The position numbers and the translations under genes were made by a program. A stretch of DNA of 64,000 nt. It comes from Oxalobacteraceae bacterium CAVE-383. GTDB lineage: Bacteria; Pseudomonadota; Gammaproteobacteria; Burkholderiales; Burkholderiaceae_D. How positions within the stretch are numbered: position 1 is the first letter of the stretch; the number at the start of each line of letters is the position of its first letter. The stretch is taken from positions 1,116,001-1,180,000 of the forward strand of contig REGP01000002.1 of the NCBI GenBank assembly GCA_004134995.1, in the 5' to 3' direction. Shown piece by piece: positions 4,989 to 61,710 of this stretch. A model generated the notes under the pieces. The model was not told where the DNA came from and did not search any database. It was given only the letters and a program-made list of their open reading frames with translations.

Positions 4989-4990
4989 GT

Positions 4991-40819: not shown

Positions 40820-40927
40820 TGCTTAGCAGCGGCGCCGATTGGGGCGGCGAAAAATGCTCGATGATGCGATGGATATTTATTGCGTTGAATTGATGCCGGG
40901 CGCTACGGCTTGCTCTGGCGATTTTCT

Positions 40928-41308
40928 TTATATGGTGATCACAAGATCGGTGTAGGCTCCAAGATGGCCGTCTGCAGTAATAAGTCGAAGCGGCTCGGAC
41001 AGTGCTTGCGCCACTAAAATGCGATCGAACGGATCGCGATGAATATCTGGCAGATCGCAGACCAATGCGGCGTGCGCCGCACGCACCGGAAGCTCCTTGA
41101 ATCCGCTGGCCTCTATTTCCTCCACCAGCTGGTGCACGTCTGCATCCAGTTTTCCCAAGCCAATTTTTATCGACGCTTCCCATATGCTGGCGCTGCTGAC
41201 GAAAACTTCATCTGCGTCCGTAATGAGTTTCCGGGTGGCCTTGCTCAGTTTTCGGCTGCCCGTGACTGCCCATAGGTAAATGTGCGTATCCAGAAGCAAT
41301 CGCATCAA
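40928..41308 (-). CDS. VapC-like PIN-domain toxin
   Basis: 126 residues with the PIN acidic set: LLDTHIYLW (first Asp), SASIWEASIK (Glu), HRDPFDRILVAQA (Asp) and LITADGHL (Asp). PIN toxins are Mg-dependent ribonucleases that cleave tRNA or rRNA. It overlaps the antitoxin start-to-stop by 4 bp, the usual order with antitoxin first. Convergent with the PrpE-like gene. Confidence 0.92.
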   Translation of the reverse strand: MMRLLLDTHIYLWAVTGSRKLSKATRKLITDADEVFVSSASIWEASIKIGLGKLDADVHQLVEEIEASGFKELPVRAAHAALVCDLPDIHRDPFDRILVAQALSEPLRLITADGHLGAYTDLVITI

Positions 41309-41932: not shown

Positions 41933-42298
41933 ATGAAGAAGATTTTCGTGAGCAAGGAGAGCGATCTGGCGGACGGCGCGCGTCAACTGGTGCGCGAAGG
42001 CGAGCTGGAGATCGGCGTGTACCGGCGCGGCGCGGCGCTGGTGGCCTACCGCAATCTGTGCGTGCACCAGGGCGGTCCGGCCTGCGAGGGCATCACCATG
42101 CACAAGGTGGTTGAAGTCATCCGCCCGGACAAGACCTCGGCCGGCCTGCGCTTCGACATGAATGAAGAACATATCGTCTGCCCATGGCACGGCGTCGAAT
42201 ACGAGCTCAAGACCGGCGCCTGCGTGGCGGACAAGAAACGCAAGCTCAAGAAGTACGAGGTTGTCACGGAGGAGGGAAATATCTATGTGCTCGCCTGA
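41933..42298 (+). CDS. Rieske [2Fe-2S] protein
   Basis: 121 residues. Cluster ligands are visible as C-V-H (CVHQGGPACEG) and C-P-W-H (VCPWHGVEYELKTG), i.e. CxH...CxxH, but the spacer is ~43 residues, much longer than in most ferredoxins (15-17). It has no membrane anchor. It may be an electron donor or a subunit of an oxygenase, though no Rieske oxygenase alpha subunit is encoded nearby. First gene of the 41.9-49.2 kb plus-strand run; SD AGGAG eight bases before ATG. Confidence 0.85.
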   Translation: MKKIFVSKESDLADGARQLVREGELEIGVYRRGAALVAYRNLCVHQGGPACEGITMHKVVEVIRPDKTSAGLRFDMNEEHIVCPWHGVEYELKTGACVADKKRKLKKYEVVTEEGNIYVLA

Positions 42299-42620
42299 TA
42301 CCACAATGGATGCCGCTTCCGGAATGGCCGGCGTCGCAGCCTATCTGGAGCGCCAGATCGAACGCGCCAACGCCGTCATGGAAACCGACCACGAATTCTA
42401 TCCGGAGCCGATGGAAGACGTACAGAAAGTGCTGGCATTGGCGGTGCGCCTGTACGTCGCCAATTACCACGCCGGCCAGAATATTTCGATCTTTCCGGAA
42501 AAGAGCGGCGTCTCGGCCACCGACGTCATGATCGCTTGCACCCGCATGCTGGAAGCGGTGAACGTGCAATTGTTCGAACTGGGCATGTTCCAGACCTGGT
42601 CCAACCATTCCAATCATTGA
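42285..42620 (+). CDS. Unrecognised 111-residue helical protein
   Basis: Starts inside the end of the Rieske gene (14-bp overlap), with GGAGG seven bases before ATG. It looks all-helical (AAYLERQIERANAVM; VQKVLALAVRLYVANYHAG; VMIACTRMLEAVNVQLFELG), with no signal peptide or cysteine motif. No family recognised. Tight coupling to the Rieske gene and the amidohydrolase suggests an enzyme subunit or chaperone. Confidence 0.72.
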   Translation: MCSPDTTMDAASGMAGVAAYLERQIERANAVMETDHEFYPEPMEDVQKVLALAVRLYVANYHAGQNISIFPEKSGVSATDVMIACTRMLEAVNVQLFELGMFQTWSNHSNH

Positions 42621-42652
42621 GCGGCGCATTCGTCAAAATTAAGGAGATGCAA

Positions 42653-43858
42653 GTGGAATTACCTACCAGCGGCGCCAATCACATCATCAACGAGGATTTC
42701 GATACCTCCAGCCACCTGGCGCACGCGCGCAAGCAGGCCATCGAGCGCAATTACAAGGATTTCCTGATCGTCGATGTGGATTGCCACCACTATGAAACCG
42801 AACGCTTCGCCGAGATCATCGAGTACATCGAGGATCCGATCCTGAAGCAGCTCGCCAAGTCCGCCCAGCGCACCGGCAAGACGCTGATGGCGCGGCGCGA
42901 AGGCCATCAGGACATGGGCGGCCGCGTGCTGCGCTATCCGATGCGCAAGACCGAAAAAACGCCGCCGGGCCAGGACCGCGACGCCGCGCTCAGCCATCGC
43001 TACATGAATGCCTTCGGCGTCGATTATGCCGTGCTGTTCCCGACCGCGATGCTGTCGCTGGGCCTGCACCCGCAGCCGGAGTTCGAAGTCAGCCTGGCCT
43101 GGGCCTATAACCGCTGGCTGGTCGAACGCGTGCTGGCCGACAACCAGCCGCGCATCAAGTCGCTGCTGTACCTGCCGTTCAACGATCCCGAAGCCAGCTA
43201 CGAGATGGTCAAGGCCTTCGCCGGCAAGCCGGGCGTGGTCGGCTTCATGGTCACCACCGTGCGCTACAAGCCGGTGCACGACAACGTCTACATGAAGGTG
43301 TATCGCCTCATGGAAGAGCACAACCTGCCGCTGGCCTTCCATGCCGGTTTCAATTCCGCCGACCGCAGCTTCGAGCAGGCCAACCGCTTCATTACCGTGC
43401 ATGCGCTGGGCTTCACCTTCTACAACATGCTCAATATCTTCAACTGGGTGGTCAACGGCTTGCCCGAGCGTTTCCCCAAGCTGAAGGTGATCTGGCTCGA
43501 AAGCGGACTGGCCTGGCTGCCGTTCTGCATGCAGCGCATGGACAACGAATACATGATGCGCAGCTCGGAATGCCCGGCGCTGAAGAAGCTGCCGAGCGAA
43601 TACATCACCGATATGTTCTACGGCTGCCAGCCGATGGAAATGACGGCCAATTCGGAAATGCTGGAGCAGACCTTCAAGTTCATCAAGGCCGATACGCAAC
43701 TGCTGTACGCCTCTGATTATCCGCACTGGGATTTCGATGCGCCGAGCGTGATCTACGACCTGCCGTTCCTGAACGAAAGCCAGAAGCGCGCCATCCTGGG
43801 CGGCAATGCGCAGCGCGTGTTCAATCTACCGTTCACGGAGAAGCTGGCGAAGATTTGA
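42653..43858 (+). CDS. Amidohydrolase 2 family (ACMSD/resorcylate-decarboxylase-like) protein
   Basis: About 402 residues, TIM-barrel metal hydrolase. Blocks: FLIVDVDCHHYETERF, LPLAFHAGFNSADRSF (histidine ligand), VIWLESGLAWLPF and LLYASDYPHWDFDAP (Asp/His). In this family the reactions are decarboxylation of aromatic acids or hydrolysis. Start: AAGGAG touches the ATG at 42647 directly, while a GTG at 42653 has the right 6-base spacing, so the GTG is preferred. It follows the small helical gene by 32 bp. Confidence 0.86.
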   Translation: MELPTSGANHIINEDFDTSSHLAHARKQAIERNYKDFLIVDVDCHHYETERFAEIIEYIEDPILKQLAKSAQRTGKTLMARREGHQDMGGRVLRYPMRKTEKTPPGQDRDAALSHRYMNAFGVDYAVLFPTAMLSLGLHPQPEFEVSLAWAYNRWLVERVLADNQPRIKSLLYLPFNDPEASYEMVKAFAGKPGVVGFMVTTVRYKPVHDNVYMKVYRLMEEHNLPLAFHAGFNSADRSFEQANRFITVHALGFTFYNMLNIFNWVVNGLPERFPKLKVIWLESGLAWLPFCMQRMDNEYMMRSSECPALKKLPSEYITDMFYGCQPMEMTANSEMLEQTFKFIKADTQLLYASDYPHWDFDAPSVIYDLPFLNESQKRAILGGNAQRVFNLPFTEKLAKI

Positions 43859-43905
43859 GGTTTCTTTTTTTGATTCTCTTTTAATTCCAAAAAGATGGAG
43901 AAGAC

Positions 43906-44955
43906 ATGAAATTGAGCAGGCGCTCGGTGATCCGCGGTTTGGGGCTGTGCATGCTGGCCGGCGCGCTGATGCCGCCGGCCGGGGCGCAATCGTCGCATGC
44001 GATGGCGAGCTATCAGGGCGGCGACCGCGAACAGAAACTGGCGGCGGCCGCCAGGAAGGAAGGTTCGCTGCTGCTGTATACGGCCATGCCGCGCGAATAC
44101 GTCACGCAGCTCAACGATGTGTTCGAAAAGAAATACGGCGTCAAGGTGATCGTCTGGCAGGCGGTCGGCGAATCGATCCTGCAGCGCGTGCTCAACGAAA
44201 ACCGCAGCGCGCCGGCGGTCGACGTGATTCACAGCACATCGACCCTGCTGGAAGCGCTGGCGCGCGAAAACATTCTGCAGACGATCCATTCGCCGGTCCA
44301 GAAAACCCTGATCCCGGCCGCGCTGCCGAAGAATCACATGTACGCCTCGGATTTGCAGTACGTCATCGTGCAGGCCTACAACACCAACAAGGTGAAAAAG
44401 GAAGACCTGCCGAGAACCTATGAAGATCTGCTGGATCCGAAATGGAAAGGCAAGCTCAGCATCGAAGCGTCGGACAACGACTGGCTGGCCTCGGTCATCA
44501 ACGACATGGGCACGGAAAAGGGCACGCAATACTTCAAGGATCTGGTGGCCGGCAATACGCTGTCGGTGCGCCAGGGGCACACGCTGCTGACCAGCCTGGT
44601 GGCCGCGGGCGAAGTGCCGCTGGCTCTGACGGTGTATCAGTACAGCGCCGAGCAGGCCAGGAAGAAGGGTGCGCCGGTCGACTGGTTCGCCATCGAGCCG
44701 GCGGTCAGTATTTTCAGCGGCGTGGGCGTGGCCAGGAAAGCGCCGCATCCCAACGCCGCGCTGCTGTACTACGACTACATGCTGGGGCCGGACGCGCAGG
44801 CGATCCTGGCCCGGATCGGCTACCCGCCGACCAGCACGCTGGTCGAGTCGCCCCTGAAAGGCCTCAAGATCAAATATCTGGACGGCGCCGAGCTGCTGGA
44901 CGGGCAGGCCAGGTCGGAAGCGCAGTTCAAGACCTTGATCAACAGCAGCCGCTAG
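43906..44955 (+). CDS. Periplasmic ABC substrate-binding protein, family 1 (orphan), copy A
   Basis: 349 residues with a Tat-like or Sec signal (two arginines early, hydrophobic LGLCMLAGALMPPAGAQS). It then has the Fe/2-aminoethylphosphonate-type binding fold: EGSLLLYTAMPREY, VFEKKYGVKVIVWQA, DLLDPKWKGKLSIE, GAPVDWFAIEPAV, APHPNAALLYYDYML. Three more copies lie at 50344, 51467 and 53928. No permease or ATPase of the matching type is nearby; the ABC genes that follow are of the metal type. Ligand unknown. Confidence 0.88.
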   Translation: MKLSRRSVIRGLGLCMLAGALMPPAGAQSSHAMASYQGGDREQKLAAAARKEGSLLLYTAMPREYVTQLNDVFEKKYGVKVIVWQAVGESILQRVLNENRSAPAVDVIHSTSTLLEALARENILQTIHSPVQKTLIPAALPKNHMYASDLQYVIVQAYNTNKVKKEDLPRTYEDLLDPKWKGKLSIEASDNDWLASVINDMGTEKGTQYFKDLVAGNTLSVRQGHTLLTSLVAAGEVPLALTVYQYSAEQARKKGAPVDWFAIEPAVSIFSGVGVARKAPHPNAALLYYDYMLGPDAQAILARIGYPPTSTLVESPLKGLKIKYLDGAELLDGQARSEAQFKTLINSSR

Positions 44956-44987
44956 GCTGCACAGCACAAGGACAGAGGAAAAACGGC

Positions 44988-45956
44988 ATGCGGCGCATCT
45001 TCAGCCATGCAGGTTTCGAAGCCGCCGGATTGCCGCGGCTGGCGCAGCGGCTGTTGCTGTTGTTGCTGTTGTTACTGTGTACGGCGCTATTTTCGATGCA
45101 GGCCGCGCACGCGCAGCAGCCAGTACCGCTCAAGAAGCCGCTGCACGTGGTGACCACCTTCACCATCATCCAGGATATCGCCCAAAACGTGGCCGGCACC
45201 GCGGCAGTGGTGGATTCGATTACACGGCCGGGCGCGGAAATCCACGATTACCAGCCCACGCCGCGCGATATCGTCAAAGTGCAGTCGGCCGATCTGGTGC
45301 TGTGGAACGGTCTGAATCTGGAGCGCTGGTTTCTGAAGTTCTTCGATAACGTCAGGAACGTGCCCAGCGCGGTGCTGACGGACGGCATCGCGCCGATCGG
45401 CATCGGCGAAGGGCCGTATGCGGGCAAGCCCAATCCGCATGCGTGGATGTCGCCGGCCAACGGCCTGCTCTATATCGAGAACGTGCGCCGCGCCTTGAGC
45501 AAGGCCGATCCGGCCAATGCCGATGTGTATGCGCGCAATGCGGCGGCCTACGCGGCCAGGGTCAAGGCGCTGGATGCGCCGCTGCGCCAGCGCCTGGCGC
45601 GCATTCCGGCCGCGCAGCGCTGGCTGGTGTCGAGCGAAGGCGCGTTCAGTTATCTGGTGCGCGATTACGGCATGCGCGAGGCGTATCTGTGGCCGATCAA
45701 CGCCGATGAGCAGGGCACGCCGCAGCAGGTTCGCAAGGTGATCGATCTGGTGCGCGCGAATCGGATTCCGGTGGTGTTCAGTGAAAGCACCATCTCGGAC
45801 CGGGCCGCCAAACAGGTGGCGCGCGAAGCCGAGGGGACGCGCTACGGCGGCGTGCTGTACGTCGATTCGCTGAGCGCCGCGGACGGCCCGGTGCCGACGT
45901 ATATCGATCTGCTGAAAGTCACGGTCGAAACCATTGCAAAAGGATTTTGTCAATGA
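44988..45956 (+). CDS. Metal ABC transporter substrate-binding protein (cluster A-I, SitA/MntC-like)
   Basis: 322 residues with a leucine-rich signal peptide (cleavage near AHAQQ, ~residue 42). Metal ligands fit the A-I group: His in [12 protein letters not shown], His in NPHAWMSP, Glu in [14 protein letters not shown] and Asp/Glu in FSESTISDR. The His-His-Glu-Asp pattern points to Mn2+ or Fe2+ rather than Zn2+ (ZnuA has a third His and an acidic loop). First gene of a four-gene transporter; GAGG precedes ATG. Confidence 0.9.
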
Positions 45957-46831
45957 ACACTATGAACAATAAGGTCACCCGTCTGGTCTTGAACAGGCCC
46001 GCCCCGTCGAAAGCGGCGGCGGCCGGCATTGGCGTCGCCGCCGGTCTGTCGGTGCGGGAAATCACGGTGGTCTATCGAAACGGGCATCTGGCGCTGTCGG
46101 ACACTTCGTTCGCGTTGGGCGAAGGCAGCATCTGCGGCCTGATCGGCGTCAACGGCAGCGGCAAGTCGACGCTGTTCAAGTCGATCATGGGCCTGGTCAG
46201 GCCGGCCTGCGGGGCCATCAGCTTGTGCGGCATGACGGTGGAAGCCGCCTTGAAACGCAATATCGTGGCCTATGTGCCGCAGAGCGAGGAAGTCGACTGG
46301 AATTTTCCGGTGTCGGTGCAGGATGTGGTCATGATGGGCCGCTACGGCTATATGAATTTCCTGCGCATGGCGTCGAAAGAGGATAGGCGCAAGGTCGATG
46401 AGGCCCTGGAGCGGGTCGGCTTGAGCGCGCTGCGCGAACGCCAGATCGGCGAACTCTCCGGCGGCCAGAAGAAGCGGGTGTTCCTGGCGCGGGCGCTGGC
46501 GCAGCAGGGCCGGGTGATTCTGCTGGACGAGCCGTTTACCGGCGTCGACGTCAAGACGGAGGCGACGATTATCGATCTGCTGCGGGATCTGCGCGAGCAG
46601 GGGCATCTGATGCTGGTATCGACCCACAATCTGGACGCGGTGCCGGATTTCTGCGACCAGGTGGTGCTGCTGAACCGCACGGTGCTGGCCGCCGGGCCGA
46701 CGCGGGAGGTGTTTACCAAAGAGAATCTCGAACAGGCCTTTGGCGGCGCCTTGCGCCATTTCCGGCCTGACGCGCCTTCGCTGCCGGAAAGCGATCGCGT
46801 CACGCCATTGCGCCCCGTCAAACTGGGATAA
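45953..46831 (+). CDS. Metal ABC transporter ATP-binding protein
   Basis: 292 residues. Walker [13 protein letters not shown], signature [17 protein letters not shown], Walker [13 protein letters not shown] and the switch histidine in VSTHNLD are all intact. It overlaps the binding-protein gene by 4 bp at ATG 45953, which has AGGA at 8 bases; a TTG six bases earlier is possible. It drives Mn/Fe import with the two permeases downstream. Confidence 0.92.
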
Positions 46832-46833
46832 GC

Positions 46834-47706
46834 ATGATGCCGAGCTCAATCCCGATCTTGCATGCGCTGCTGGTGCCTTTTACCTACGACTATATGTTCA
46901 AGGCCATGTGGGTGAGCGCGCTGGTCGGCGGCGCCTGCGCTTTCCTGTCGGTGTATCTGGTGTTGAAGGGCTGGTCGCTGATGGGCGATGCGCTGGCGCA
47001 CTCGGTGGTGCCGGGCGTGGCGGCGGCTTATATCCTGCAATTGCCGTATGCGGTGGGCGCTTTTTTTGCGGGTTTGCTGGCGTCGTCGGCGATGGGGCTG
47101 ATCAAGCAGAAGACCCGTTTGCGCGAAGATGTGGTGACCGGACTGGTCTTCACGTCCTTGTTTGCGCTGGGGCTGTTGATGGCTTCGCTGCATCCGACGG
47201 CGGTAAATATCCAGTCGATCGTGCTGGGCAATATCCTGGCGATTTCGGATGACGATGTGGTACAGGTGGCGGCCATCGCGGCGGTCTCCCTGGCGATCCT
47301 GTGCCTGAAGTGGCGCGATCTGATGGCGGTGTTCTTCGACGAGCAGCATGCGCGCATTGCCGGGATCAATGCGATGCGCCTGAAGCTGCTGTTCTTTGCT
47401 TTGTTGACGGCTTGTACGGTGGCGGCGCTGCAGACGGTGGGCGCGGTGCTGGTGGTGGCGATGCTGATCACGCCGGGAGCGACGGCATATCTGCTGACGG
47501 ATCGCTTCAAGACCATGCTTTTGATCAGTATGGTTGTTGGCGTTGCAGGAAGTTTTATTGGGGCTTATCTGAGTTATTTTCTGGATGGGGCGACGGGCGG
47601 GGTGATTGTGGTGGTGCAGGTAGCGATCTTTGTGACAGCGTTTGTGTTTGCGCCCAAGCATGGATTGCGGGCGGCTCGGCGGCACGGCCTTGGGATGGCG
47701 TCATGA
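46834..47706 (+). CDS. Metal ABC transporter permease, first subunit
   Basis: 290 residues, eight or so TM helices of the ABC-3 family: VSALVGGACAFLSVYLVLKGWSLMGDALAHSVVPGV near the N-terminus and VGAVLVVAMLITPGATAYLLTDRF near the C-terminus. Starts 2 bp after the ATPase stop. It pairs with the next gene as a heterodimeric channel, as SitC and SitD do. The last third has noticeably more T than the flanks. Confidence 0.9.
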   Translation: MMPSSIPILHALLVPFTYDYMFKAMWVSALVGGACAFLSVYLVLKGWSLMGDALAHSVVPGVAAAYILQLPYAVGAFFAGLLASSAMGLIKQKTRLREDVVTGLVFTSLFALGLLMASLHPTAVNIQSIVLGNILAISDDDVVQVAAIAAVSLAILCLKWRDLMAVFFDEQHARIAGINAMRLKLLFFALLTACTVAALQTVGAVLVVAMLITPGATAYLLTDRFKTMLLISMVVGVAGSFIGAYLSYFLDGATGGVIVVVQVAIFVTAFVFAPKHGLRAARRHGLGMAS

Positions 47707-48587
47707 GCGGCGTTACCGGTTTTCTGATGGATTGGATTATGGCGCCGATGTCGTATCCGTTCATGCAGCGCGCTTTGGTCATCGCATTATTGGTGGGTGC
47801 TGTATGTGCGGTGCTGTCCTGTTATTTGGTGCTGCGCGGCTGGTCGCTGATGGGCGACGCCATTTCGCACGGGGTGTTGCCCGGCATCGTGATCGCGGCA
47901 ATGGCGGGAATTCCGCTGGCGATCGGTGCTTTCGCGGCGGGCTTGTCGTGCGCGGCGCTGACGGGGTATCTGAAAGAGAACAGCAGGCTGAAAGAGGATA
48001 CAGTCATGGGCATTGTGTTCTCGGGCATGTTCGCGCTGGGCATCGTCCTGTTCGCGCGCATGCAGACCGATCTGCATCTGACCCATATCCTGTTCGGCAA
48101 CATGCTGGGCGTGGATGGCGAGGATCTGCTGGAGATGGGAATCATCGCTGGCGTGACCTTGCTGCTGGTGCTGGTGAAGCGGCGCGACTTGCTGCTGTAT
48201 TGCTTCGATCCCAGCCATGCGCGCGTAGCCGGATTGCCGGTGCGGGTCTTGCATTACGGCTTATTGGTGCTGTTGTCGCTGACCGTCGTGGCGGCGCTGA
48301 AGGCGGTCGGCATCATCCTGGCGGTGGCGATGCTGGTGGCGCCGGGAGCGATCGCGTATCTGCTGACGGACCGCTTCGAGCGGATGCTGGCCATCGCCAC
48401 GGCGGTGGCCACCGGCGCCTGCGTGGCGGGTACGCTGCTCAGTTACCATATCGACGGCGCCACCGGCCCCTGCATCGTGCTGATCCAGGCCGGCGTTTTC
48501 ATCCTGGCGTTCCTGTTCGCGCCCAAGCGCGGCATGCTGGCGCTGCGGGGCGCCGCGGCCGCGGCCGAAGCTGCGCCGGCGCATTGA
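47703..48587 (+). CDS. Metal ABC transporter permease, second subunit
   Basis: 294 residues, ABC-3 family, paralogous to the preceding permease: VLRGWSLMGDAISHGVLPG and VGIILAVAMLVAPGAIAYLLTDRF align with it. Overlaps it by 4 bp (ATGA at 47703). Together with the ATPase and binding protein, a full Mn/Fe importer is encoded. Last ~15 residues are alanine-rich and disordered. Confidence 0.9.
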   Translation: MSGVTGFLMDWIMAPMSYPFMQRALVIALLVGAVCAVLSCYLVLRGWSLMGDAISHGVLPGIVIAAMAGIPLAIGAFAAGLSCAALTGYLKENSRLKEDTVMGIVFSGMFALGIVLFARMQTDLHLTHILFGNMLGVDGEDLLEMGIIAGVTLLLVLVKRRDLLLYCFDPSHARVAGLPVRVLHYGLLVLLSLTVVAALKAVGIILAVAMLVAPGAIAYLLTDRFERMLAIATAVATGACVAGTLLSYHIDGATGPCIVLIQAGVFILAFLFAPKRGMLALRGAAAAAEAAPAH

Positions 48588-48620
48588 ATATTGCATCATC
48601 ATCGGAGTGACGGAGAAAAT

Positions 48621-49202
48621 ATGTCGAGCGCTTACAACACCAACAAGAACCGCATTTTCGTGCGCGGCATCGAAGGTTCATACAGCCTGAAGGATGAGCT
48701 GACGCGCCTGCGCGGCATGCCCCGCGTGCGCAAGGCCGCGGCGATTCCGTTTACCGACGGCACTCAGGTTTTCAGCCGCCATTTCATCGAGCCGAAAGAC
48801 GGCGTCACGCAGACTTTCCATCTGCATCTGGAAGAGTACGGCCCGGGCGGAAAATCGGGCAAGCACGGCCACGTCAACGAGGCGGCGTTTTATATCCTGG
48901 ACGGCATCGGCTATGAAATCCACGACGGCATCCGCTACGACTGGGAAGCCGGCGACATTGCTATCGTGCACAACAACTGCGTGCACCAGCACTTCAACCG
49001 GGACCCGCTCAAGCCGGCACGCGCGCTGGTGATCAAGACCAAGCCCATGTATCTGTTCATGAACCTGCTGTTCCAGAAGCAGGTAATCCCGCGCCCAAGC
49101 GAGCCGATGCCGGGCTATGAAGACTACAAGCCGCGCGATCTGGATGAAAATTATAATTACGCGGCGATTGCGGTGAAGAATGTGGAAGCGGGAACGGCGT
49201 GA
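48621..49202 (+). CDS. Single-domain cupin protein
   Basis: 193 residues from ATG 48621 (GGAG seven bases upstream). Cupin motif 1 is GKSGKHGHVNEAAFYILDG (His, His, Glu ligands) and motif 2 follows at WEAGDIAIVHNNCVHQHFN. It should bind Fe2+ or Mn2+ and may be a dioxygenase or isomerase. It closes the transporter run, hinting that the metal importer serves this and the other cupin at 52605. Confidence 0.82.
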   Translation: MSSAYNTNKNRIFVRGIEGSYSLKDELTRLRGMPRVRKAAAIPFTDGTQVFSRHFIEPKDGVTQTFHLHLEEYGPGGKSGKHGHVNEAAFYILDGIGYEIHDGIRYDWEAGDIAIVHNNCVHQHFNRDPLKPARALVIKTKPMYLFMNLLFQKQVIPRPSEPMPGYEDYKPRDLDENYNYAAIAVKNVEAGTA

Positions 49203-49216
49203 GTCGACGATAGTTT

Positions 49217-50158
49217 TTATGCCCGTCCCGCCAGGGCATTTTCCCGCATGATATCGATCAGGATTTCCATTTCAGGGGAGGGCGTGAAGTTGGCGCGCAT
49301 CATCAGGCCGGTCGAGCGGGCGGCCTGGCCGATGGATTCCTTGGCCGCCTTGGCCGGCGGGGTGAGCTTGACCAGCGTGCCTTGCTCGACATCGAGCTTT
49401 ACCGCGCACCAGGGAACGAACCAGACCGCGTCGCTATTGAGCGTGTAAGTGCGGCCGAACGAGATCGAACGGCTTTCGACGAAGTGCGCGATCGGTCGCA
49501 GATCGAAGGCCATCGCCAGCGGCGAAGCGGCGCGGCGGTTGATCGAGGTCTTCGGCGGCAGGATGGAAATGAAACGCCGCGGCTCGCCGTCATCCCCAGC
49601 CGGCGCAGCCAGCAGCGGATGGCCCGGCCGCACCACCACCACCAGCGGATCGGCATACAGGAATTCGAAGGAAAAACCGATCATCTGCTCGGCGTCCAGA
49701 TGCCGGCACAGGATCAGGTCGAATTCGTCGTCCCGCAAGCGGTCCAGCAGATAGCCGGTTTCGCCGGTCAGGATGCTGACCTGGACGTTCGGAATGCGGC
49801 GCTCGAATTCCATCAATACCTGCGGCACGAACGAGACGGTCATGGAAGGCGTGGCGCCGATCCGGATCACGGAATTCGGCGTTTTCCGGGCCGGCCCCAT
49901 GAACTCGGCGGCCTGCTGCAGCGCATTGACCGCCGCTTCCGCATAGGTAAAAAAGACTTCCGCGCGCTGCGTCATCTGCATGCCGCGATAGCCGCGGTCG
50001 AACAGGAGGATATTCAGGAATTCCTCAAGCTCCTTGATGGTTTTGGATACCGCCGGCTGCGTCAGGGATAAGGCCACCGCGGCTTTTTGAACGCTGGCGT
50101 GATTGGCGACAGCAAGAAAACATTGGAGATGCCGAAATTTGATGCGTCCGTCGATCAT
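49217..50158 (-). CDS. LysR-family regulator, PcaQ/GbpR-like
   Basis: 313 residues from ATG 50158, opening MIDGRIKFRHLQCFLAVANHAS, the HTH start typical of PcaQ/GbpR-type LysR proteins of aromatic or sugar metabolism; AVALSLTQPAVSKTIKELE is the recognition region. The effector-binding domain has RIGATPSMT and LILCRHLD. An ATG 11 codons upstream (50191) is possible. It ends 14 bp from the cupin stop (convergent) and lies behind the orphan binding-protein genes, which it may control. Confidence 0.88.
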   Translation of the reverse strand: MIDGRIKFRHLQCFLAVANHASVQKAAVALSLTQPAVSKTIKELEEFLNILLFDRGYRGMQMTQRAEVFFTYAEAAVNALQQAAEFMGPARKTPNSVIRIGATPSMTVSFVPQVLMEFERRIPNVQVSILTGETGYLLDRLRDDEFDLILCRHLDAEQMIGFSFEFLYADPLVVVVRPGHPLLAAPAGDDGEPRRFISILPPKTSINRRAASPLAMAFDLRPIAHFVESRSISFGRTYTLNSDAVWFVPWCAVKLDVEQGTLVKLTPPAKAAKESIGQAARSTGLMMRANFTPSPEMEILIDIMRENALAGRA

Positions 50159-50343
50159 GTTGGTCCCAAGGCGTCCAGGCTGCGACTTCATTGTTTTTCG
50201 ATAGGCCCGATAATGAGCCGAAAGAAATGAAGTGTAAAGCTGCATCCCGTTATACGGACCGATGTTCTGGAAAACTCTCCCTGTATTGGTTGGCCGGCGA
50301 TGCTCGTTCAGCCTTATTGAGCCTAATTCAGCCTAGTCCCGCC

Positions 50344-51414
50344 TTATTTGGATTGCTTGACGATAATGTCGTCGTAGACCTTGTTCCACTTCTGGCTTTC
50401 ATCGAGCGAGATCTTGGCGTCGATGAATTTCATCGGCATCTTGTTCAGCCGGGTGTCGAGATTTTTACTGGTCGGCACGTAATTGCGCTTGAACAGTATC
50501 GGCTGGGCATCGCTGATCATGAAATCGTAGAACAGCACCGCGGCATTCGGATGCGGCGCGCGCCGGAAAACGGCGACGCCCTGCGGCGCGGCCAGCGTCG
50601 GTTCCAGCGAAAACCATTCGACCGGCGCGCCCTTGGCCTTGCGCTGTTCCACATTGTAGTTATAGACGTCCATCGCCATTGGCACTTCGCCCGAAGCCAC
50701 CAGGTTGATCAGCAGCGAATGCCCCTTGCGTACCGAGATGCCGTTGGTCGCCACCACGTCGCGGAACAACTGCTCGCCCTTGGCGACGCCCATTTCGTTG
50801 ACGATGCCCGCCAGCCAGTCGGCATCGTCGGCCTCGATGCCGAGCTTGCCCTTCCATTTCGGATTCAGCAGATCCAGATAGTTCTTCGGCAGATCTTCTT
50901 TCTTGATCAGATTGGTGTTGTAGGCAAAGGTGTAGACGTTCAGCCGGGTGCTGATCCATTCGCGGTGCGGCGTGATCGCCGACGGAATCAGCTCGCTCGC
51001 ATAGGGCGAGTCGACTTCCTGCAGCAGCTTCTCGCGGCGCAGCGATTCCAGCTGCATGCCGTTGGTTTCGACCACGTCGGCGTCGAAGCGGTTGGCATGG
51101 CCTTCGGTCACCGCGCGCTGCACCACGTTCTCGCCGCCGGAGCGCCAGACCTTGACCTTGATGCCGTATTTCTTTTCAAAGGCGGCAGTCAGCTCGGCCA
51201 AGTCGTCCACCGACAGCGAGGTATACAGCAGCAGCTCGCCTTCCTTTTTGGCGCCCTCGAGCAGATGCTTCTGGCGATCGGCGCCCTTGTACAACGCCGG
51301 CAGCGCCGCTTCGGCGCCGCCGGCACGTTGGGAGAATGCGGCGCCGCCGATGGCCAGCAGGGCGAGCGAACCGGCCATGGCGGCCGCGATGGTTTTCTTC
51401 TTATTGTTCAACAT
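50344..51414 (-). CDS. Periplasmic ABC substrate-binding protein, family 1 (orphan), copy B
   Basis: 356 residues, signal peptide (KKKTIAAAMAGSLALLAIGGAAFS). Same fold blocks as copy A: EGELLLYTSLSVDD, FEKKYGIKVKVWR, DLLNPKWKGKLGIE, GAPVEWFSLEP, APHPNAAVLFYDFM. GAGGA precedes the ATG. Together with copies C and D it forms a minus-strand series without transporter core genes, so it may deliver to permeases elsewhere or act in sensing. Confidence 0.87.
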   Translation of the reverse strand: MLNNKKKTIAAAMAGSLALLAIGGAAFSQRAGGAEAALPALYKGADRQKHLLEGAKKEGELLLYTSLSVDDLAELTAAFEKKYGIKVKVWRSGGENVVQRAVTEGHANRFDADVVETNGMQLESLRREKLLQEVDSPYASELIPSAITPHREWISTRLNVYTFAYNTNLIKKEDLPKNYLDLLNPKWKGKLGIEADDADWLAGIVNEMGVAKGEQLFRDVVATNGISVRKGHSLLINLVASGEVPMAMDVYNYNVEQRKAKGAPVEWFSLEPTLAAPQGVAVFRRAPHPNAAVLFYDFMISDAQPILFKRNYVPTSKNLDTRLNKMPMKFIDAKISLDESQKWNKVYDDIIVKQSK

Positions 51415-51466
51415 ACGTCTCCTCTTTGACAGGGCGTGCGTTATTTCCTGAAGCTATTTTTTGACG

Positions 51467-52528
51467 TTATTTTTTTAAAAACAGGCTATTCCATTGCGTT
51501 TGCCATTTTTTGTCTTCGTCGAGCAAGGTGACCGAGTCCATCATGATGAAAGGAAAATTCTTCAGATAGCTTTTGACTTTGATGCTGGCCGGCACGCGGC
51601 CCATGGCATTGAGCAATTCCTGCCCTTCCGGCGACAGGATGAAATCGGCGAACAGCAGGGCGGCGTGCGGATGCGGCGCATTCTTCGCCAGGCCCAGGCC
51701 CAAGCCCTCGCCGACCACCGGCTCCACCGGCACCCAGTCGATCGGCGCGCCGCGCCGCTTCAGCGATTCCACCGCCGAATTCGAATTGGTCAGCGACACC
51801 GGCACTTCGCCGGCCGCCACCAGCCCGGTCAGCACGATATGGCCGGTGCGCACGTCGGGCTTCATCTCGCTCAATTGCCGGAACAGGCTGGCGCCGCGTT
51901 CCGGTCCCAGCTTCTTGACGATGGTCGCCATCCAATAGGCATCGTCGACTTCGATGCCGACCTGGCCCTTCCATTTCGGATCGAGGAAACCTTCGTAAGT
52001 AGCCGGAATATCCTCGCGCCTGAATTTGTTGGTGTTGTAGGCCACCACAAAGAAATTGATGCGGTCGGATACCCAGAGGCCGCTTTTCGGGATGGCGTCC
52101 GGCGGCAGATCGGCGAGGTAGGGGCTGAAGAACGGCGACAGCAGCTTTTCGCGCGCGATCATTTCGACCGCGGCGCCGCTGGTTTCCACCACGTCGAACG
52201 TAAAATGCCTGGCCTGCCCTTCGGTGATGGCGCGCTGCATGACCTTGTTGCCGCTGGCGCGCCAGATGTCGACCTTGACGCCGTATTTCTTTTCGAAGGC
52301 CTGCGCCAGCGGGCCGGATTCGGGCGGCGTCATCGAGGTGTACCAGGTGAAGGTGCCTTCCTGGCGCGCGCGGTCCAGCAATTGCCGGTCGCGGTCGGCG
52401 CCGCGGTATTGATACAGCGCATCGTTCGGGCCCGGGTCGGCCGATTGCGCATGCGCGGCCGAGGCGCACAGCAGCAGCGCGGCGGCAATCAGGGCGGTGA
52501 TGGCATTGCGTGGTCTGGTGCGGTTCAT
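51467..52528 (-). CDS. Periplasmic ABC substrate-binding protein, family 1 (orphan), copy C
   Basis: 353 residues from ATG 52528 (GAGG upstream), signal peptide ending AHAQS near residue 28. Blocks: EGTFTWYTSMTPPES, FEKKYGVKVDIWRA, GFLDPKWKGQVGIEVDD, GAPIDWVPVEP, APHPHAALLFADFIL. It is the most divergent of the four paralogues in the ligand-contact segments, suggesting a related but different ligand. Confidence 0.87.
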   Translation of the reverse strand: MNRTRPRNAITALIAAALLLCASAAHAQSADPGPNDALYQYRGADRDRQLLDRARQEGTFTWYTSMTPPESGPLAQAFEKKYGVKVDIWRASGNKVMQRAITEGQARHFTFDVVETSGAAVEMIAREKLLSPFFSPYLADLPPDAIPKSGLWVSDRINFFVVAYNTNKFRREDIPATYEGFLDPKWKGQVGIEVDDAYWMATIVKKLGPERGASLFRQLSEMKPDVRTGHIVLTGLVAAGEVPVSLTNSNSAVESLKRRGAPIDWVPVEPVVGEGLGLGLAKNAPHPHAALLFADFILSPEGQELLNAMGRVPASIKVKSYLKNFPFIMMDSVTLLDEDKKWQTQWNSLFLKK

Positions 52529-52604
52529 GCCTACCTCAGGAATACACTTCGCTAAAGGCAATGCTGTCTATTATTTTTTTGGCCGGCGCCGGGGCTACTT
52601 GCGG

Positions 52605-53807
52605 CTATTTACGTTCCGGCGGCAGATACCAGGCCGGATCCATCCGGTTGGCGACGCCGGCTTCCTTCAGCTTTGCTTCGTATTCGTTGCGGATGTAGGG
52701 ATCTTCCATCCAGTAGGGAATCGCGTTGCCGCCTTCGGTGATGTCGATGGCGCCGGCATCGGTGACGATTTCGCCCGGCACGCCCGGCATGCGCGAACGG
52801 CTGTTCGGGCCGAACCAGGCGGTCAGGCGCAGCGGATCGGAACCGGAACTGAAATGCTGGTGATACCAGTTGGCGGCGCCGGGCGCCGCCGTGACCATGC
52901 CGACCGGCTCGTAGTCGATGCGGCGCACGCGTTCGGCACGTCCGTCCTTCCAGGGCGTTTCGCCGATTTCCTCGGGCCAGGTATAGGTGTAGCCCTTGCC
53001 GTTCAGGCAGATCAGCACCGCCGCCGAACTGTGCGCGTGCGCTTTCGAATAGCGGCCGTTCTCATGCTGGCCGATCCAGAAATAGAAGCAGTTGTTGGTC
53101 ATGAACGGTTCGACGCGACGATAGCCGGGCGAGCGCCGGTTGTCCAGCGGCAGGTCGCAGTTCATCGCGTCCGGAACCAGATTGGTGCGGCGCATCGCCA
53201 GGCCGCGCACCGGATCGGTTTCGATGCTGTCGTTGGGCTTGAAGAAATCGTCCGCGCCGCTGAAGCGGTTCTTGAAAATATAGGGATTATTGAATACGGC
53301 GCCGAAATCGTTGAGCAGATTGATCACGTTCGGGGCGGTGGTGCCGGCCAGCAGCAGGGCGCCGCCGGAAGTGCCGTTGACGACGCGGTACCAGGCGTTC
53401 ATCGGGATCGAGAACATTGATCCTTTCTGCCATTCGAAGACGTGCTTCCTGGTATCGCCTTCCTGCCAGACTTCCGTGGTGCCGCGGCCTTCGACGACGA
53501 GGAAGATTTCCTCGTACATGTGCTTTTCCGGATTGAGCGCGCCGGCCGGCGGCACTTCGATCACATAGCAGCCCCATTTGCCTTCGGTGCCGTACAACTG
53601 GATGAAATGGCCCTTGCCGCCCTTGCGCTTCCATGGCACCAGCGGCAGGTTCTGCACTTTGCTGATGCCGATATCGCGGAATACCGGAATGCCTTCTTCC
53701 TCCATGAATGCATCGTAGGGCGTCGGCTTCTTGGCGAACTTGCCGAAGCCCGCCTTCTTGCTGCCCGCGGGCTCATGCCAGTGGGTTTGATCCTTGTCAT
53801 GGGGCAT
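52605..53807 (-). CDS. Two-domain cupin (bicupin) protein
   Basis: 400 residues. First cupin near 105-190: KHMYEEIFLVVEGRGTTEVW, then SMFSIPMNAWYRVVNG. Second near 245-350: SKAHAHSSAAVLICLNGKGYTY, then AAPGAANWYHQHFSS, with His ligands in both motifs. Metal-dependent dioxygenases of the gentisate/bicupin type have this layout, but no exact family is recognised. GGAG seven bases before ATG. Sits between binding-protein copies C and D. Confidence 0.83.
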   Translation of the reverse strand: MPHDKDQTHWHEPAGSKKAGFGKFAKKPTPYDAFMEEEGIPVFRDIGISKVQNLPLVPWKRKGGKGHFIQLYGTEGKWGCYVIEVPPAGALNPEKHMYEEIFLVVEGRGTTEVWQEGDTRKHVFEWQKGSMFSIPMNAWYRVVNGTSGGALLLAGTTAPNVINLLNDFGAVFNNPYIFKNRFSGADDFFKPNDSIETDPVRGLAMRRTNLVPDAMNCDLPLDNRRSPGYRRVEPFMTNNCFYFWIGQHENGRYSKAHAHSSAAVLICLNGKGYTYTWPEEIGETPWKDGRAERVRRIDYEPVGMVTAAPGAANWYHQHFSSGSDPLRLTAWFGPNSRSRMPGVPGEIVTDAGAIDITEGGNAIPYWMEDPYIRNEYEAKLKEAGVANRMDPAWYLPPERK

Positions 53808-53927
53808 TGCGTGTCTCCGAAATCGTTATTCTTTTGCAGCGAGTGTATATTTCACAAGCCGCCAAGTAAAATAACATTTCGGGAGACAAGCTATTCCTAT
53901 TATTTATACCCCGGGATTTCGCCGGCC

Positions 53928-54947
53928 CTAGCGCTTGATGATCACATCGTTGAAGCTGTCTTCCCACTTTTGCCGGTTTTTCAGGGCGGTGGTGGAATCG
54001 ATGAACGTGACCTTGGCGCCCTTGAGCGGCGACGCCACCTTGGTGTTGCTCGGCATATCGTCGATGCTGGCCATCACTTCCTGGCCGTCTTTCAGCATGA
54101 ACTCATAGAACAGGCGCGCGGCGTTCGGATGCGGCGCATTCTTCAGCATGCCCACCGAGGTCGTGAACGCCAGCGCAGGTTCCAGCGCCAGCCAGTCCAC
54201 GGGGGCGCCGCTGCGCTTGAGCTGGATGGCCTTGTACTGATACACGTTGAGCGCCATCGGCACCTCGCCGGCGGCGACCATATTGGCCAACAGCGAATGG
54301 CCGGTGCGAACGGAGAGATCGTTCTTGGCTTTCAACTGCCGGAAAAACGCCAGTCCGGAATCGCCGCCCAGGCTGTCCGCGACCACATGCAGCCAGATGG
54401 AATCGGTCGATTCGATGCCCAGCTTGCCCTTCCATTTCGGATCCTGCAGATCGCGATAGCTCTTGGGCAGATCCTCTTTCTTGATCAGATTGGTATTGTA
54501 GGCAAGCACATACAGCGTAATCTGGGCGATGGCCCACTGATGATGGGACGGCACGGCGCCGGGGACCAGATCGGGATAGGAAGGCGATTCCACCGGCGTC
54601 AGCATCTTTTCCTGCGACAGCGCTTCCATATTGTCCGTCTGTATCTGGGCCACATCGACCTTGTAGGTCTTGCCGTTCGCCTCGGTGACGATGCGCTGCA
54701 GAACGTTGTCGTCGCCGGAACGCCATACCACGACCTTGATGCCGTATTTGTCCTCGAAGCGCTTGATGACCTGCGCGGAGTCGCCCGGCGCCAGGCTGGT
54801 GTACCACGTCAGCGTGCCTTCCTTTTTCGCCGCCGCGATCAGCTGCGCCGGGTTATCCGTGTAAGGATCCGCCGATGCCGCCGTTGAAAACAGCGCGCCC
54901 AGCATCGACGCCAGCAATACCCCGTAAAACCCCGTATTTATTTTCAT
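53928..54947 (-). CDS. Periplasmic ABC substrate-binding protein, family 1 (orphan), copy D
   Basis: 339 residues, signal peptide ending near AASA (~residue 26). Blocks: EGTLTWYTSLAPGD, FEDKYGIKVVVWRS, DLQDPKWKGKLGIESTD, GAPVDWLALEPAL, APHPNAARLFYEFML. Strong SD (GGGGG) five bases before ATG. It follows the cysteine hydrolase gene on the same strand by 30 bp, so hydrolase and binding protein are likely one transcript. Confidence 0.87.
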   Translation of the reverse strand: MKINTGFYGVLLASMLGALFSTAASADPYTDNPAQLIAAAKKEGTLTWYTSLAPGDSAQVIKRFEDKYGIKVVVWRSGDDNVLQRIVTEANGKTYKVDVAQIQTDNMEALSQEKMLTPVESPSYPDLVPGAVPSHHQWAIAQITLYVLAYNTNLIKKEDLPKSYRDLQDPKWKGKLGIESTDSIWLHVVADSLGGDSGLAFFRQLKAKNDLSVRTGHSLLANMVAAGEVPMALNVYQYKAIQLKRSGAPVDWLALEPALAFTTSVGMLKNAPHPNAARLFYEFMLKDGQEVMASIDDMPSNTKVASPLKGAKVTFIDSTTALKNRQKWEDSFNDVIIKR

Positions 54948-54977
54948 GTATTCCCCCCTGAAAAACGTAAAAAAACC

Positions 54978-55652
54978 TTACTCCAAACGCGCAATCGCCT
55001 GATCCGCCGTCATGACGTCGCCGAAGAAGAGCTGGAAATTGTTCAACGAGGCGGTGTGTTCCTCATCGTATCTGGTGGCGCAGCAGTCGGACAGCATGGC
55101 GACGCGGTAGTCCATCATCATCGCATCGCGGCCGGTCGATTCGCAGCAGACGTTGGTGGTGGTGCCCGCGATCAGCAGGAATTCGATGCCGTTCTCCCGC
55201 AGCACGTCGCGCAGATTGGAAGAGCATTCGATGATGGCGCTGAACATGATCTTGTGAATGCGGATGTCATTTGCCTCGACTTCCAGCGCCGGGAACAGCT
55301 TGAAGCCTTCCGCGTTCTCGTCAAGGCTGACCAGCCGCCGTTTCGCGACTTCCGCGGTGAGGCCGAAATTGTGATGCTTCTCCCAGTGTTCAAGCGCGCC
55401 CGTTGCCGTGGTCTGGATCCAGATGACCTTGCCGCCGGCCTCTCGCACTTTCTTGGCCATGAGATTGATCTTGGGGACGATATCGCGCGCCTGCGGCACT
55501 TCGGAAGGAAAGCCTTCGGCCACGAAATGGTTCTGCATATCGACCACGACCAGCGCGCAGGCGGCCGGGTTGATTGCCTCGATCGAAATAGGGCGTCCTT
55601 TACGGCGCAGCACGCGTTCCGCGACGGATGGGGTAATGACATAGTTTTGCAT
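54978..55652 (-). CDS. Isochorismatase-family cysteine hydrolase (amidase type)
   Basis: 224 residues from ATG 55652. The catalytic triad of the superfamily is visible: Asp in LVVVDMQNHF, Lys in the HKIMFSA region and Cys in GTTTNVCCEST. The sequence style is that of RutB/N-carbamoylsarcosine-type amidohydrolases that hydrolyse C-N bonds to release ammonia. It could open or trim an amide in the pathway of this locus. Preceded by a 213-bp divergent gap to the LysR gene. Confidence 0.88.
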   Translation of the reverse strand: MQNYVITPSVAERVLRRKGRPISIEAINPAACALVVVDMQNHFVAEGFPSEVPQARDIVPKINLMAKKVREAGGKVIWIQTTATGALEHWEKHHNFGLTAEVAKRRLVSLDENAEGFKLFPALEVEANDIRIHKIMFSAIIECSSNLRDVLRENGIEFLLIAGTTTNVCCESTGRDAMMMDYRVAMLSDCCATRYDEEHTASLNNFQLFFGDVMTADQAIARLE

Positions 55653-55865
55653 CTGGGTGTCCTCGTTATATTCGTTATGGTGTTCAATTGCGTGCGGTAT
55701 CGGCTTAAGATGGCGCCAATGCCAGGTCGATGCCACGCAATCAAGTTTTACACTTGATGACGCGCAGCACCATATCTATTCGTTGTAAAAGCCATCTAAT
55801 TTTTTGATTGATTGAAATTGCATCGCACAATCGCGGTGCGGTTGCCGCACCAAATTCTTGCTCCG

Positions 55866-57110
55866 ATGACAAATCGATCCAACGCCGATACCGCTCCGTA
55901 CCATGGCCTCAGCCTTGCCCACTTGTGGACATTCACCCACGTGGCGCAAACCGGCAGCGTGACGCAGAGCGCGGCCATGCTGTTTCGAACGCAGTCGGCG
56001 GTGACGCGCGCCATCCAGATCCTGGAATCGGAAGTCGGCGAGCCGCTATTCGAACGCCGTCCTTCCGGCATGCTGCTGACCCCTGTAGGACATTGCGCGC
56101 TGGCCAGGGCCAGGCGGGTCTTTTTCGAATTGGACGCATTGGCCCGCTGGTGCGCAGCGCAGGGCGCGCGCGCCTTTCCCAAAGGCAGCGTGCCGGCCTA
56201 TCTGATGAACACCCGCCGGCTCGATTTGCTGGTGGCGCTGGCCAGGACGCAGCACATGCCGACCGCGGCCGCATCCGTGGGCATCACGCAATCGGCCGTG
56301 AGCGGAGCGGTCAAAGTGCTGGAAGCCGGCGCCGGCCTGAGCCTGTTCCAGCGCAGCGGCAGGGGCATCGTCCAGACGCCGCATGGCCAGGCCTTCGTGC
56401 TGCATGTGCGGCGCGCCCTGAACGAATTGCGGCTGGTGCGGGACGACATCGCCGCGCTGCAAGGCAATTTGCGCGGCACGGTGGTCATCGGCGCGCCGCC
56501 GTTGGCGCGCACGCTGATCCTGCCCAAGGCGATTGCCGGCGTCAGCGCGGCGTTTCCGGGCATTCGCATCTGCACCAATGAAAGCCCCTACGAAATATTG
56601 ATGGCCGAATTGCGGGCCGGCGATCTCGACTTCATCCTGGGAGCCCTGCCGCCAGAACAGGAAGCGCCGGGCCTGATCAACGAATTGCTGTTTTACGATG
56701 ACCTGGTGGTGGTCGCCCGCAAAAACCATCCGCTGGCGGCGCGCGCCAACCTGAGCATGAAAGCGCTGCAAACCGCCCGCTGGATCCTGCCGCGCAGCCA
56801 TACGCCGGCGCGTCCCGTCATCGACGAGCTGTTCCGGCGCGAACATTTGCCGCCGCCGGCGCCCACCGTCGAATCCGTCGACACCACCGTATTGCGCGGC
56901 ACCCTGGTCCATTCCGATATGATCGCCGCGGTCTCGGCGCAGCAACTGCATCTGGAGATCCTTTCAGGCGAACTGGTGGTGCTCGACGTGCGCATGTCCG
57001 GCACGCAACGCGCCATCGGCCTGCGGCGCAGGGAGGGCGCGCCGGCGCCGGCCGCGCAGGCCATGATGGAGGCGATCAGAAAAATCGTGGTGGAAATGGG
57101 GTTGGGATAG
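55866..57110 (+). CDS. LysR-family regulator with two N-terminal HTH modules
   Basis: 414 residues from ATG 55866, about 110 longer than a usual LysR protein. Two LysR HTH blocks occur in tandem: residues ~18-75 (LWTFTHVAQTGSVTQSAAML...RTQSAVTRAIQILE) and ~118-175 (LDLLVALARTQHMPTAAASV...ITQSAVSGAVKVLE). A normal effector domain follows (GTVVIGAPPLARTLILPKAI; GDLDFILGALPPEQ). The open frame can be extended to a TTG at 55812. Divergent from the cysteine hydrolase gene, which it probably regulates. Confidence 0.88.
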   Translation: MTNRSNADTAPYHGLSLAHLWTFTHVAQTGSVTQSAAMLFRTQSAVTRAIQILESEVGEPLFERRPSGMLLTPVGHCALARARRVFFELDALARWCAAQGARAFPKGSVPAYLMNTRRLDLLVALARTQHMPTAAASVGITQSAVSGAVKVLEAGAGLSLFQRSGRGIVQTPHGQAFVLHVRRALNELRLVRDDIAALQGNLRGTVVIGAPPLARTLILPKAIAGVSAAFPGIRICTNESPYEILMAELRAGDLDFILGALPPEQEAPGLINELLFYDDLVVVARKNHPLAARANLSMKALQTARWILPRSHTPARPVIDELFRREHLPPPAPTVESVDTTVLRGTLVHSDMIAAVSAQQLHLEILSGELVVLDVRMSGTQRAIGLRRREGAPAPAAQAMMEAIRKIVVEMGLG

Positions 57111-61477: not shown

Positions 61478-61710
61478 TTTCGGTTTCCTGTAACTGTGCC
61501 GTTCGCGCAAGCCCGCATGCAAGCGCTGCCGGGCCGTTACGATAAGACTGGCCTCCCTTGAAAAGTTCAGTCGCGCGGGCGCTGCGGCGATGCGTTGCAA
61601 ATGCCGGAACTAAGACGGCGCCGCGCTCATCGAATCGCGTATCGATTGCAGCCCTGCATATTTTTTTCAGGATTGATTTCCATGGATCCATCGGCCTCCC
61701 TTCCGGCGGG

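Follow-up and report, generated by a model that had tools for sequence, protein, structure and literature searches.

Among enzymes of the PF04909 fold, the amidohydrolase-related dinuclear oxygenases (AROs) form a large class that is mostly uncharacterised, and manganese can have a part in the C-H hydroxylation that they carry out. AibH2, one of two subunits of AibH1H2, binds its two metals through Asp25, His27, His211, Glu265, Asp337 and His340, and Asp342 is an acidic second-sphere position said to be conserved in dinuclear members only (PMC7782822). AibH1H2 requires Mn, while a second ARO, SfbO, gives more than seven times as much product with Mn/Fe as in its Fe/Fe form. How Mn reaches the site is left open in one study, which raises high cytoplasmic Mn or chaperones with data for neither (PMC10401708). 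Here we describe a locus at positions 41933-57110 of a 64,000-nucleotide stretch from Oxalobacteraceae bacterium CAVE-383 (contig REGP01000002.1, positions 1,116,001 to 1,180,000; hereafter the window, in a genome of 4.1 Mb). We consider it fairly probable that its plus-strand operon encodes an ARO-type multicomponent monooxygenase with a Rieske ferredoxin, a small helical partner and a YfeABCD importer, working in the pathway proposed below.

The locus consists of two convergent gene runs, on the plus strand from 41933 to 49202 and on the minus strand from 55736 to 49217. All intergenic gaps or overlaps in the nine-gene plus run are below 50 bp, and the order is Rieske ferredoxin, 104-aa protein, PF04909 protein, a periplasmic binding protein (SBP1), YfeA, YfeB, YfeC, YfeD and a cupin. 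An earlier sequence-only reading of this DNA had listed the genes of the locus, and every gene in that list is present in the window and confirmed by Pfam or NCBIfam profile matches: Rieske PF00355, the Amidohydro_2 fold PF04909, Cupin_2 in two proteins (one a bicupin), the Isochorismatase fold, four SBP_bac_1/6/8 binding proteins, and a ZnuA-family binding protein with an ATP-binding cassette (ABC) ATPase and two ABC-3 permeases. Two starts have been moved, that of its '42285 protein' to 42306 (104 aa) and that of its 'amidohydrolase' to 42647.

The PF04909 fold of the protein encoded at 42647-43858 (+) scores 81.5 bits against a cut-off of 26.4. Its top sequence matches in PDB are 8sm7, 8sm6, 8sm9, 6m1w/8ful and 8sm8 (E 3e-40 to 1e-25), with the family's decarboxylases ranking well below these structures. 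The five are AibH2 and four dinuclear oxygenases of the SfbO study: 8SM6 is SfbO and 8SM7-8SM9 are other oxygenases in the same set (PMC10811679), 8FUM-8FUO are AibH1H2 structures (PMC10401708), and the 378-aa chain of 6m1w/8ful agrees with AibH2 in the gene table of PMC7782822. The six AibH2 ligands align to D45, H47, H232, E285, D357 and H360 of the window protein, and Asp342 to D362. These residues are kept in 115/115 of the ARO loci introduced below (D45 and H47 in 114, one frame ending at a contig end), conservation that is partly expected as the loci were picked by similarity to the window protein. The genome itself supplies a control: it holds eight PF04909 matches, and by alignment none of the seven outside the window carries the full ligand set, although C3_691065 has D and C5_466353 has E at the D362 position, the former without equivalents of E285 and H360. 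Nor did the window Rieske ferredoxin give a tblastn match (E<=1e-4) in the stretches around these seven control genes. The sequence-only reading took the protein for an amidohydrolase of a group acting on aromatic or amide compounds; action on amides is not supported, given the ligand set and the in-genome control, and on these residues we assign it, with high confidence, to the AROs and set the hydrolase reading aside. The assignment also raises the possibility that many proteins labelled 'amidohydrolase' belong to another kind of enzyme: at least 6187 relatives of the window ARO were found at E<=0.001 among 8000 candidates scored, a count made by sequence similarity alone.

We compared 115 ARO loci: the window, a Herminiimonas contig (L004), seven plasmid loci (L008-L014), two loci from a search of the order (L017, L018), four from a search of the phylum (L026-L029) and 100 from the family of genome G1396. 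E limits for locus choice were 1e-60 or 1e-80, with the plasmid matches 48-57% identical. The set is uneven, with 104 loci from one family (f256) of the phylum, 100 of them taken from the matches listed with no random draw, many family matches that ranked lower or lay on short contigs left out, and L009 and L010 near-copies of each other. Flanks extended to at most about 9-12 kb, often ended by contig ends, and neighbours were sought by single-query phmmer (E<=1e-4), which would miss distant or other importers. Within this set 111/115 loci have a Rieske gene on the ARO strand no more than 1.5 kb from the ARO gene; those without are L090, L100, L106 and L145, of which L106 ends at a contig end. 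The 104-aa family occurs at 82 loci, always between the Rieske and ARO genes (77 in the order Rieske-small-ARO, five reversed). Mapped on an ARO tree, which was a quick search with the window pair and L017 on long branches, its presence or absence takes 9 changes against 28.8 in shuffles, so the small gene tracks lineages yet has been gained or lost several times. The sequence-only reading proposed a search for co-occurrence of the small protein, the PF04909 gene and the bicupin. The first two co-occur at these 82/115 loci, whereas the bicupin family is found at only 2/115 loci (the window and Herminiimonas), and bicupin and oxygenase are therefore not an obligate pair.

Three of these loci bear on the surroundings of AROs more generally. 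L009 and L010, on Phaeobacter and Salipiger plasmids, hold near-identical ARO clusters; the genes that come next carry the annotations Mu transposase, TniB and TniQ, and these transposition-gene neighbours suggest that ARO clusters are mobile. At L026 (4739-11232, minus strand) the genes after the trio encode an aldehyde dehydrogenase, a binding protein from the family of those in the window and a thiamine pyrophosphate enzyme, which hints at oxidation of an alcohol or aldehyde product.

The first two genes of the trio are the Rieske [2Fe-2S] ferredoxin (41933-42298, +; PF00355, 5.7e-12), in which C43-x-H45 ... C83-x2-H86 is present and which would have an AibG-like role, and the gene for the 104-aa protein (42306-42620, +). 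The 104-aa product matches nothing in Pfam at E<=1, and 25 proteins of its kind, its own included, are present in the protein database. Its AlphaFold model consists of four helices (predicted local distance difference test score 82.5, predicted template modelling score 0.64), and Foldseek against PDB returned 0 matches at E<=10, a lack of matches that is no demonstration of a new fold. Identification with a known effector was rejected, as beyond the Pfam result one NCBIfam match (E 0.068) falls far below cut-off and a profile search of PDB gave a single match at E 0.83. Because of the proximity of the genes we propose that it is an ARO component, the likeliest roles being effector, structural partner or metal-loading protein, and it is likely that many AROs have such a small third component, one that work on the oxygenase only would miss.

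The importer belongs, on its profile and sequence matches, to the YfeABCD/SitABCD Mn/Fe type. The ZnuA-family binding protein (44988-45956, +; PF01297, 285 bits) is closest to YfeA (E 9e-138) and MntC (E about 2e-107), and H86, H151, E217 and D293, which we take to be a His-His-Glu-Asp set of metal ligands, are identical in the aligned YfeA and MntC. For the YfeB/SitB-type ATPase (45947-46831, +) the best NCBIfam match is NF011630, 'manganese/iron ABC transporter ATP-binding protein', at 388.9 bits, just below the cut-off of 393. The permeases are of YfeC type (46834-47706, +; PF00950, 283 bits) and YfeD type (47703-48587, +; PF00950, 304 bits for 47727-48587), the start of the latter being read from the sequence and overlapping the YfeC stop. 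Given the Mn need of AibH1H2 and the preference of SfbO for Mn/Fe, a Mn/Fe importer in an ARO operon fits cofactor supply. The sequence-only reading had the locus bring in metal for its own enzymes and named the cupins as users; the importer type agrees with the first part, but the oxygenase is the better candidate user.

A YfeA match lies near 2/115 AROs, those of the window and Herminiimonas, which are one lineage and in which the position of the importer within the operon is kept. An NRAMP match lies near one more (L017), and with only 3/115 loci involved a metal importer was rejected as a general ARO companion. L017 derives from a genome bin (89% complete, 6% contaminated) and is a single run of ferredoxin reductase, NRAMP transporter (PF01566, 382.7 bits), ARO, small gene and Rieske gene, with TGATG junctions at reductase/NRAMP and NRAMP/ARO; the transporter carries DPGN and MPH motifs, whose customary meaning we presume to hold here. 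The L017 and window AROs lie far apart on the tree, which makes at least two separate entries of importers into ARO operons probable, though two such events among 115 loci could partly be chance. No report of an ARO with a metal importer, or with a small third component, was found in those portions of the published literature that were accessible, which included PMC10811679, PMC10401708, PMC7782822 and PMC12141560. An importer encoded with the oxygenase makes the question of Mn delivery testable by gene removal.

Synteny extends beyond the plus operon. The Herminiimonas contig (14,702 bases) keeps 13 genes, namely those for Rieske ferredoxin (90% identical), small protein, ARO, SBP1, YfeABCD, cupin, LysR1, SBP2, SBP3 and bicupin, at 76-96% protein identity, and ends before any view of SBP4, hydrolase or LysR2; this conservation in a second genus shows that the cluster is more than chance. 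Herminiimonas has an additional 443-aa bicupin between LysR1 and SBP2 (L159, about 9283-10371, minus strand), 31% identical to the window bicupin, at a place where the window has a gap of only 98 bp. The minus-strand run consists of cysteine hydrolase, SBP4, bicupin, SBP3, SBP2 and LysR1, with the second LysR gene diverging at 55812. The bicupin, hydrolase and binding proteins suggest breakdown of an aromatic or nitrogen-containing acid, and the catabolic role put forward from sequence alone fits these genes and the LysR regulators.

Gentisate and salicylate 1,2-dioxygenases have a three-His iron site in the N-terminal cupin. The bicupin (52605-53807, -) has a two-cupin fold like theirs by predicted-structure model, with its conserved His set in the C-terminal cupin only (H257, H259, H316/H318); the N-terminal cupin reads H96-x-Y98, with HxH missing, and a plain gentisate dioxygenase was rejected on the missing N-terminal three-His site. 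Its profile found a sole match among PDB sequences, an auxin-binding protein (E 0.00096). The 193-aa cupin that closes the plus operon (48621-49202, +; PF07883) is weakly similar to 5-aminosalicylate 1,2-dioxygenase (24.9 bits of a cut-off of 650). Two cupin genes 72% and 69% identical to it lie at 18.6-25 kb of contig C5 of the same genome (L181, L182); next to each are a further cupin-like stretch and a gene for a binding protein, and these stretches gave no ARO match. The isochorismatase-fold cysteine hydrolase (54978-55652, -, or a longer 252-aa frame, 54978-55736; PF00857, 137 bits) scores 78.1 of 377.95 bits for RutB, short of the RutB-like cut-off, and 49.6 of 370 bits for BiuH. In the numbering of the 252-aa frame, D66, K162 and C197 are presumably its catalytic triad.

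SBP1 (43906-44955, +) is SBP_bac_6 / PhnS-like (NCBIfam PhnS 77.5 bits, cut-off 395.3), and no permease matching it was seen in the locus. The other binding proteins are SBP2 (50344-51414, -; PF01547/PF13416), SBP3 (51467-52561, -, by profile match, with a likely ATG start at 52528) and SBP4 (53928-54947, -; PF13416, 69.9 bits). The sequence-only reading listed the four as orphan binding proteins of the locus. They were rejected as a locus signature, SBP2 having 50 matches (E<=1e-5) in the genome, these four included and at least two being pieces of one gene. Such a number is in itself a large expansion of SBP_bac_6-like binding proteins in one genome, comparable in style to Bug/TctC expansions; no relevant published report on it was found.

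How far do these data favour an oxygenase with its own metal supply over other explanations? One rival sees in the PF04909 protein an ordinary metal-dependent hydrolase or decarboxylase, with the Rieske ferredoxin working for a different enzyme. PF04909 does hold many such enzymes, and decarboxylases that have been characterised are found further down among the PDB matches. Further, L179 in the same genome has an ordinary PF04909 gene (4885-5922) about 0.9 kb after the gene for a Rieske-domain subunit of a ring-hydroxylating oxygenase (2715-4004), so that a Rieske neighbour alone is no proof of an ARO and the ligands carry the assignment. The ligand set, the order of the PDB matches and the in-genome control nevertheless make this rival very improbable, as do the Rieske ferredoxins adjoining AROs at nearly all loci compared and the fact that no second oxygenase which could use the Rieske protein was recognised in the locus. 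L179 as a whole (2715-10382, on contig C4 like the window) is another aromatic-type cluster: besides the Rieske-type ring-hydroxylating oxygenase it holds a pair of similar ordinary PF04909 genes, a gene for a binding protein and one that resembles a reductase gene. A far stronger contender, to which we give not quite even odds, grants the trio but sees YfeABCD as a general Mn/Fe importer present in the operon by chance, or one that serves the cupins, which also use Fe/Mn. It accords with the scarcity of importers near other AROs and with the YfeA being the sole close match in the genome (the other ZnuA-family binding protein is 34% identical), which may serve the whole cell. Against it, two genera keep the Yfe genes in the same run, after the ARO and before the cupin, L017 joins an importer of an unrelated family to a distant ARO trio, and an NRAMP gene elsewhere in the genome could give the general supply. 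That the Yfe importer is dedicated to supplying the oxygenase metal is a possibility we hold at somewhat below even. Finally, the convergent operons may be separate systems, the ARO operon merely adjoining an unrelated operon for bicupin, hydrolase and binding proteins. The bicupin's rarity at ARO loci agrees with this, as do related cupin and bicupin genes elsewhere in the genome, whose neighbours include binding proteins, an ABC permease and a class II aldolase, in stretches that gave no ARO match, and the roughly 250 kb between bicupin and ARO on Sinorhizobium mexicanum pEmeITTGR7c. We regard this as unlikely, though less so than the hydrolase rival, in view of the 13-gene synteny across two genera, the cupin closing the ARO operon (of a kind found beside bicupin-like genes elsewhere in the genome) and the three of four plasmid records with the bicupin that also carry an ARO. 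A single pathway spanning both operons appears slightly the better bet.

Several observations besides the L179 arrangement weigh against an oxygenase system with this pathway and metal supply. The small gene was not seen at 33/115 loci and so is not obligatory for the class. An AibH1-like second PF04909 subunit is absent from the window, which holds one of the genome's eight PF04909 matches, and none of the genes of the locus was recognised as one for a ferredoxin reductase; with the L017 reductase as query, other kinds of reductase being unsought, the three strongest candidates are encoded elsewhere. No YfeA or NRAMP match was found at 112/115 loci, so the class needs none nearby, and with an NRAMP gene and a second ZnuA-family binding protein elsewhere in the genome, Yfe need not be the sole source of Mn. 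The metal site of the bicupin, as read from its His residues, is in the opposite domain to that of the gentisate and salicylate dioxygenases.

With these points in mind, the oxygenase system that we favour might work as follows. Upon induction of the operon, the YfeABCD-type importer would raise cytoplasmic Mn(II)/Fe(II), and the binding proteins would bring in an aromatic or nitrogen-containing acid via a permease encoded elsewhere. A reductase, also encoded elsewhere, would use NAD(P)H to reduce the Rieske protein, which in turn would feed the electrons to a dinuclear Mn/Fe or Fe/Fe site, where the ARO would activate O2 and hydroxylate the substrate. Bicupin and cupin could then cleave or rearrange the hydroxylated product, and the cysteine hydrolase could remove an amide-type nitrogen group. 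A bolder version, which we put forward tentatively and think rather doubtful, is that the operon builds its own Mn/Fe cofactor, the importer loading Mn(II) only when the oxygenase is made, that the small protein is a new third component of many AROs which stands in for AibH1 or serves either as effector or as partner in metal loading, and that YfeABCD and NRAMP were recruited independently.

ARO matches were found in 2/392 sampled genomes of the source genome's own family, 3/399 of its order, 1/369 of its class and 3/398 of its phylum (own genome counted each time; E limit 1e-60, for the order 1e-80), low counts that mark the locus as rare within its own group. The G1396 family differs, with a match in at least 85/361 genomes. 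The locus has a GC content of about 0.58-0.63 within a window range of 0.54-0.69, and no clear GC island was seen at the locus in the profile across the window. Promoter-like sites number 7 against 5.5 (standard deviation 2.5) in shuffles; terminator-like sites, to which we give no weight as evidence, number 24 against 15.8 (standard deviation 3.6).

Contrary to the sequence-only reading, the locus is not flanked by two LysR genes. LysR1 (49217-50245, -; PcaQ-like, TIGR02424 273 bits, cut-off 304; PF00126 and PF03466) lies inside, at the convergent junction, LysR2 (55812-57110, +) is at the right end, and on the left none of the three genes tested at 37609-41308 is a LysR. LysR2 has two HTH_1 stretches (PF00126), that is, two helix-turn-helix domains, before a single substrate-binding domain (PF03466). 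Upstream, at 37609-40819, are an MSMEG_0569-family flavin-dependent oxidoreductase (656 bits, above cut-off) and a propionate--CoA ligase-like protein (TIGR02316, 871.7 bits, above cut-off), probably part of another cluster, and a PIN-domain protein (40928-41308, -) lies between these and the oxygenase operon. Downstream, at 59714-61600 (-), a NodU-like carbamoyltransferase gene (195 bits, cut-off 1000) adjoins a sugar-nucleotide dehydratase-like gene.

Comparison with described systems separates the familiar parts of the locus from the added ones. The bicupin is about 11% identical to gentisate/salicylate 1,2-dioxygenases, from which it also differs in the N-terminal HxH. The hydrolase shares the isochorismatase fold and Asp-Lys-Cys triad of RutB and biuret hydrolase but falls far under their curated cut-offs. 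PicB is described as a 6-hydroxypicolinate monooxygenase of four genes, picB1-4 (PMC10142695). We suspect that PicB might be an ARO. Riboflavin catabolism uses another enzyme set (PMC12746152). The importer resembles YfeABCD, SitABCD and MntABC in its binding protein, ATPase and two permeases, with YfeA its closest binding protein. Those importers are usually encoded alone, whereas this one is inside an oxygenase operon. With AibH1H2 and AibG/AibF of Rhodococcus wratislaviensis the plus operon shares the PF04909 fold, the six ligands and Asp342, a Rieske ferredoxin in the operon and a catabolic setting (PMC7782822, PMC10401708); it differs in having no recognised AibH1-like partner or reductase and in having the 104-aa helical protein, the Mn/Fe importer and binding proteins. 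With SfbO and the other AROs of Liu et al. 2024 it shares ligand types, a Rieske neighbour and an orphan substrate, and it differs in the small third component and the metal importer, neither of which is named in the accessible part of that paper (PMC10811679). The plus operon is most likely that of a known enzyme class with an added importer and small protein, not a new kind of system.

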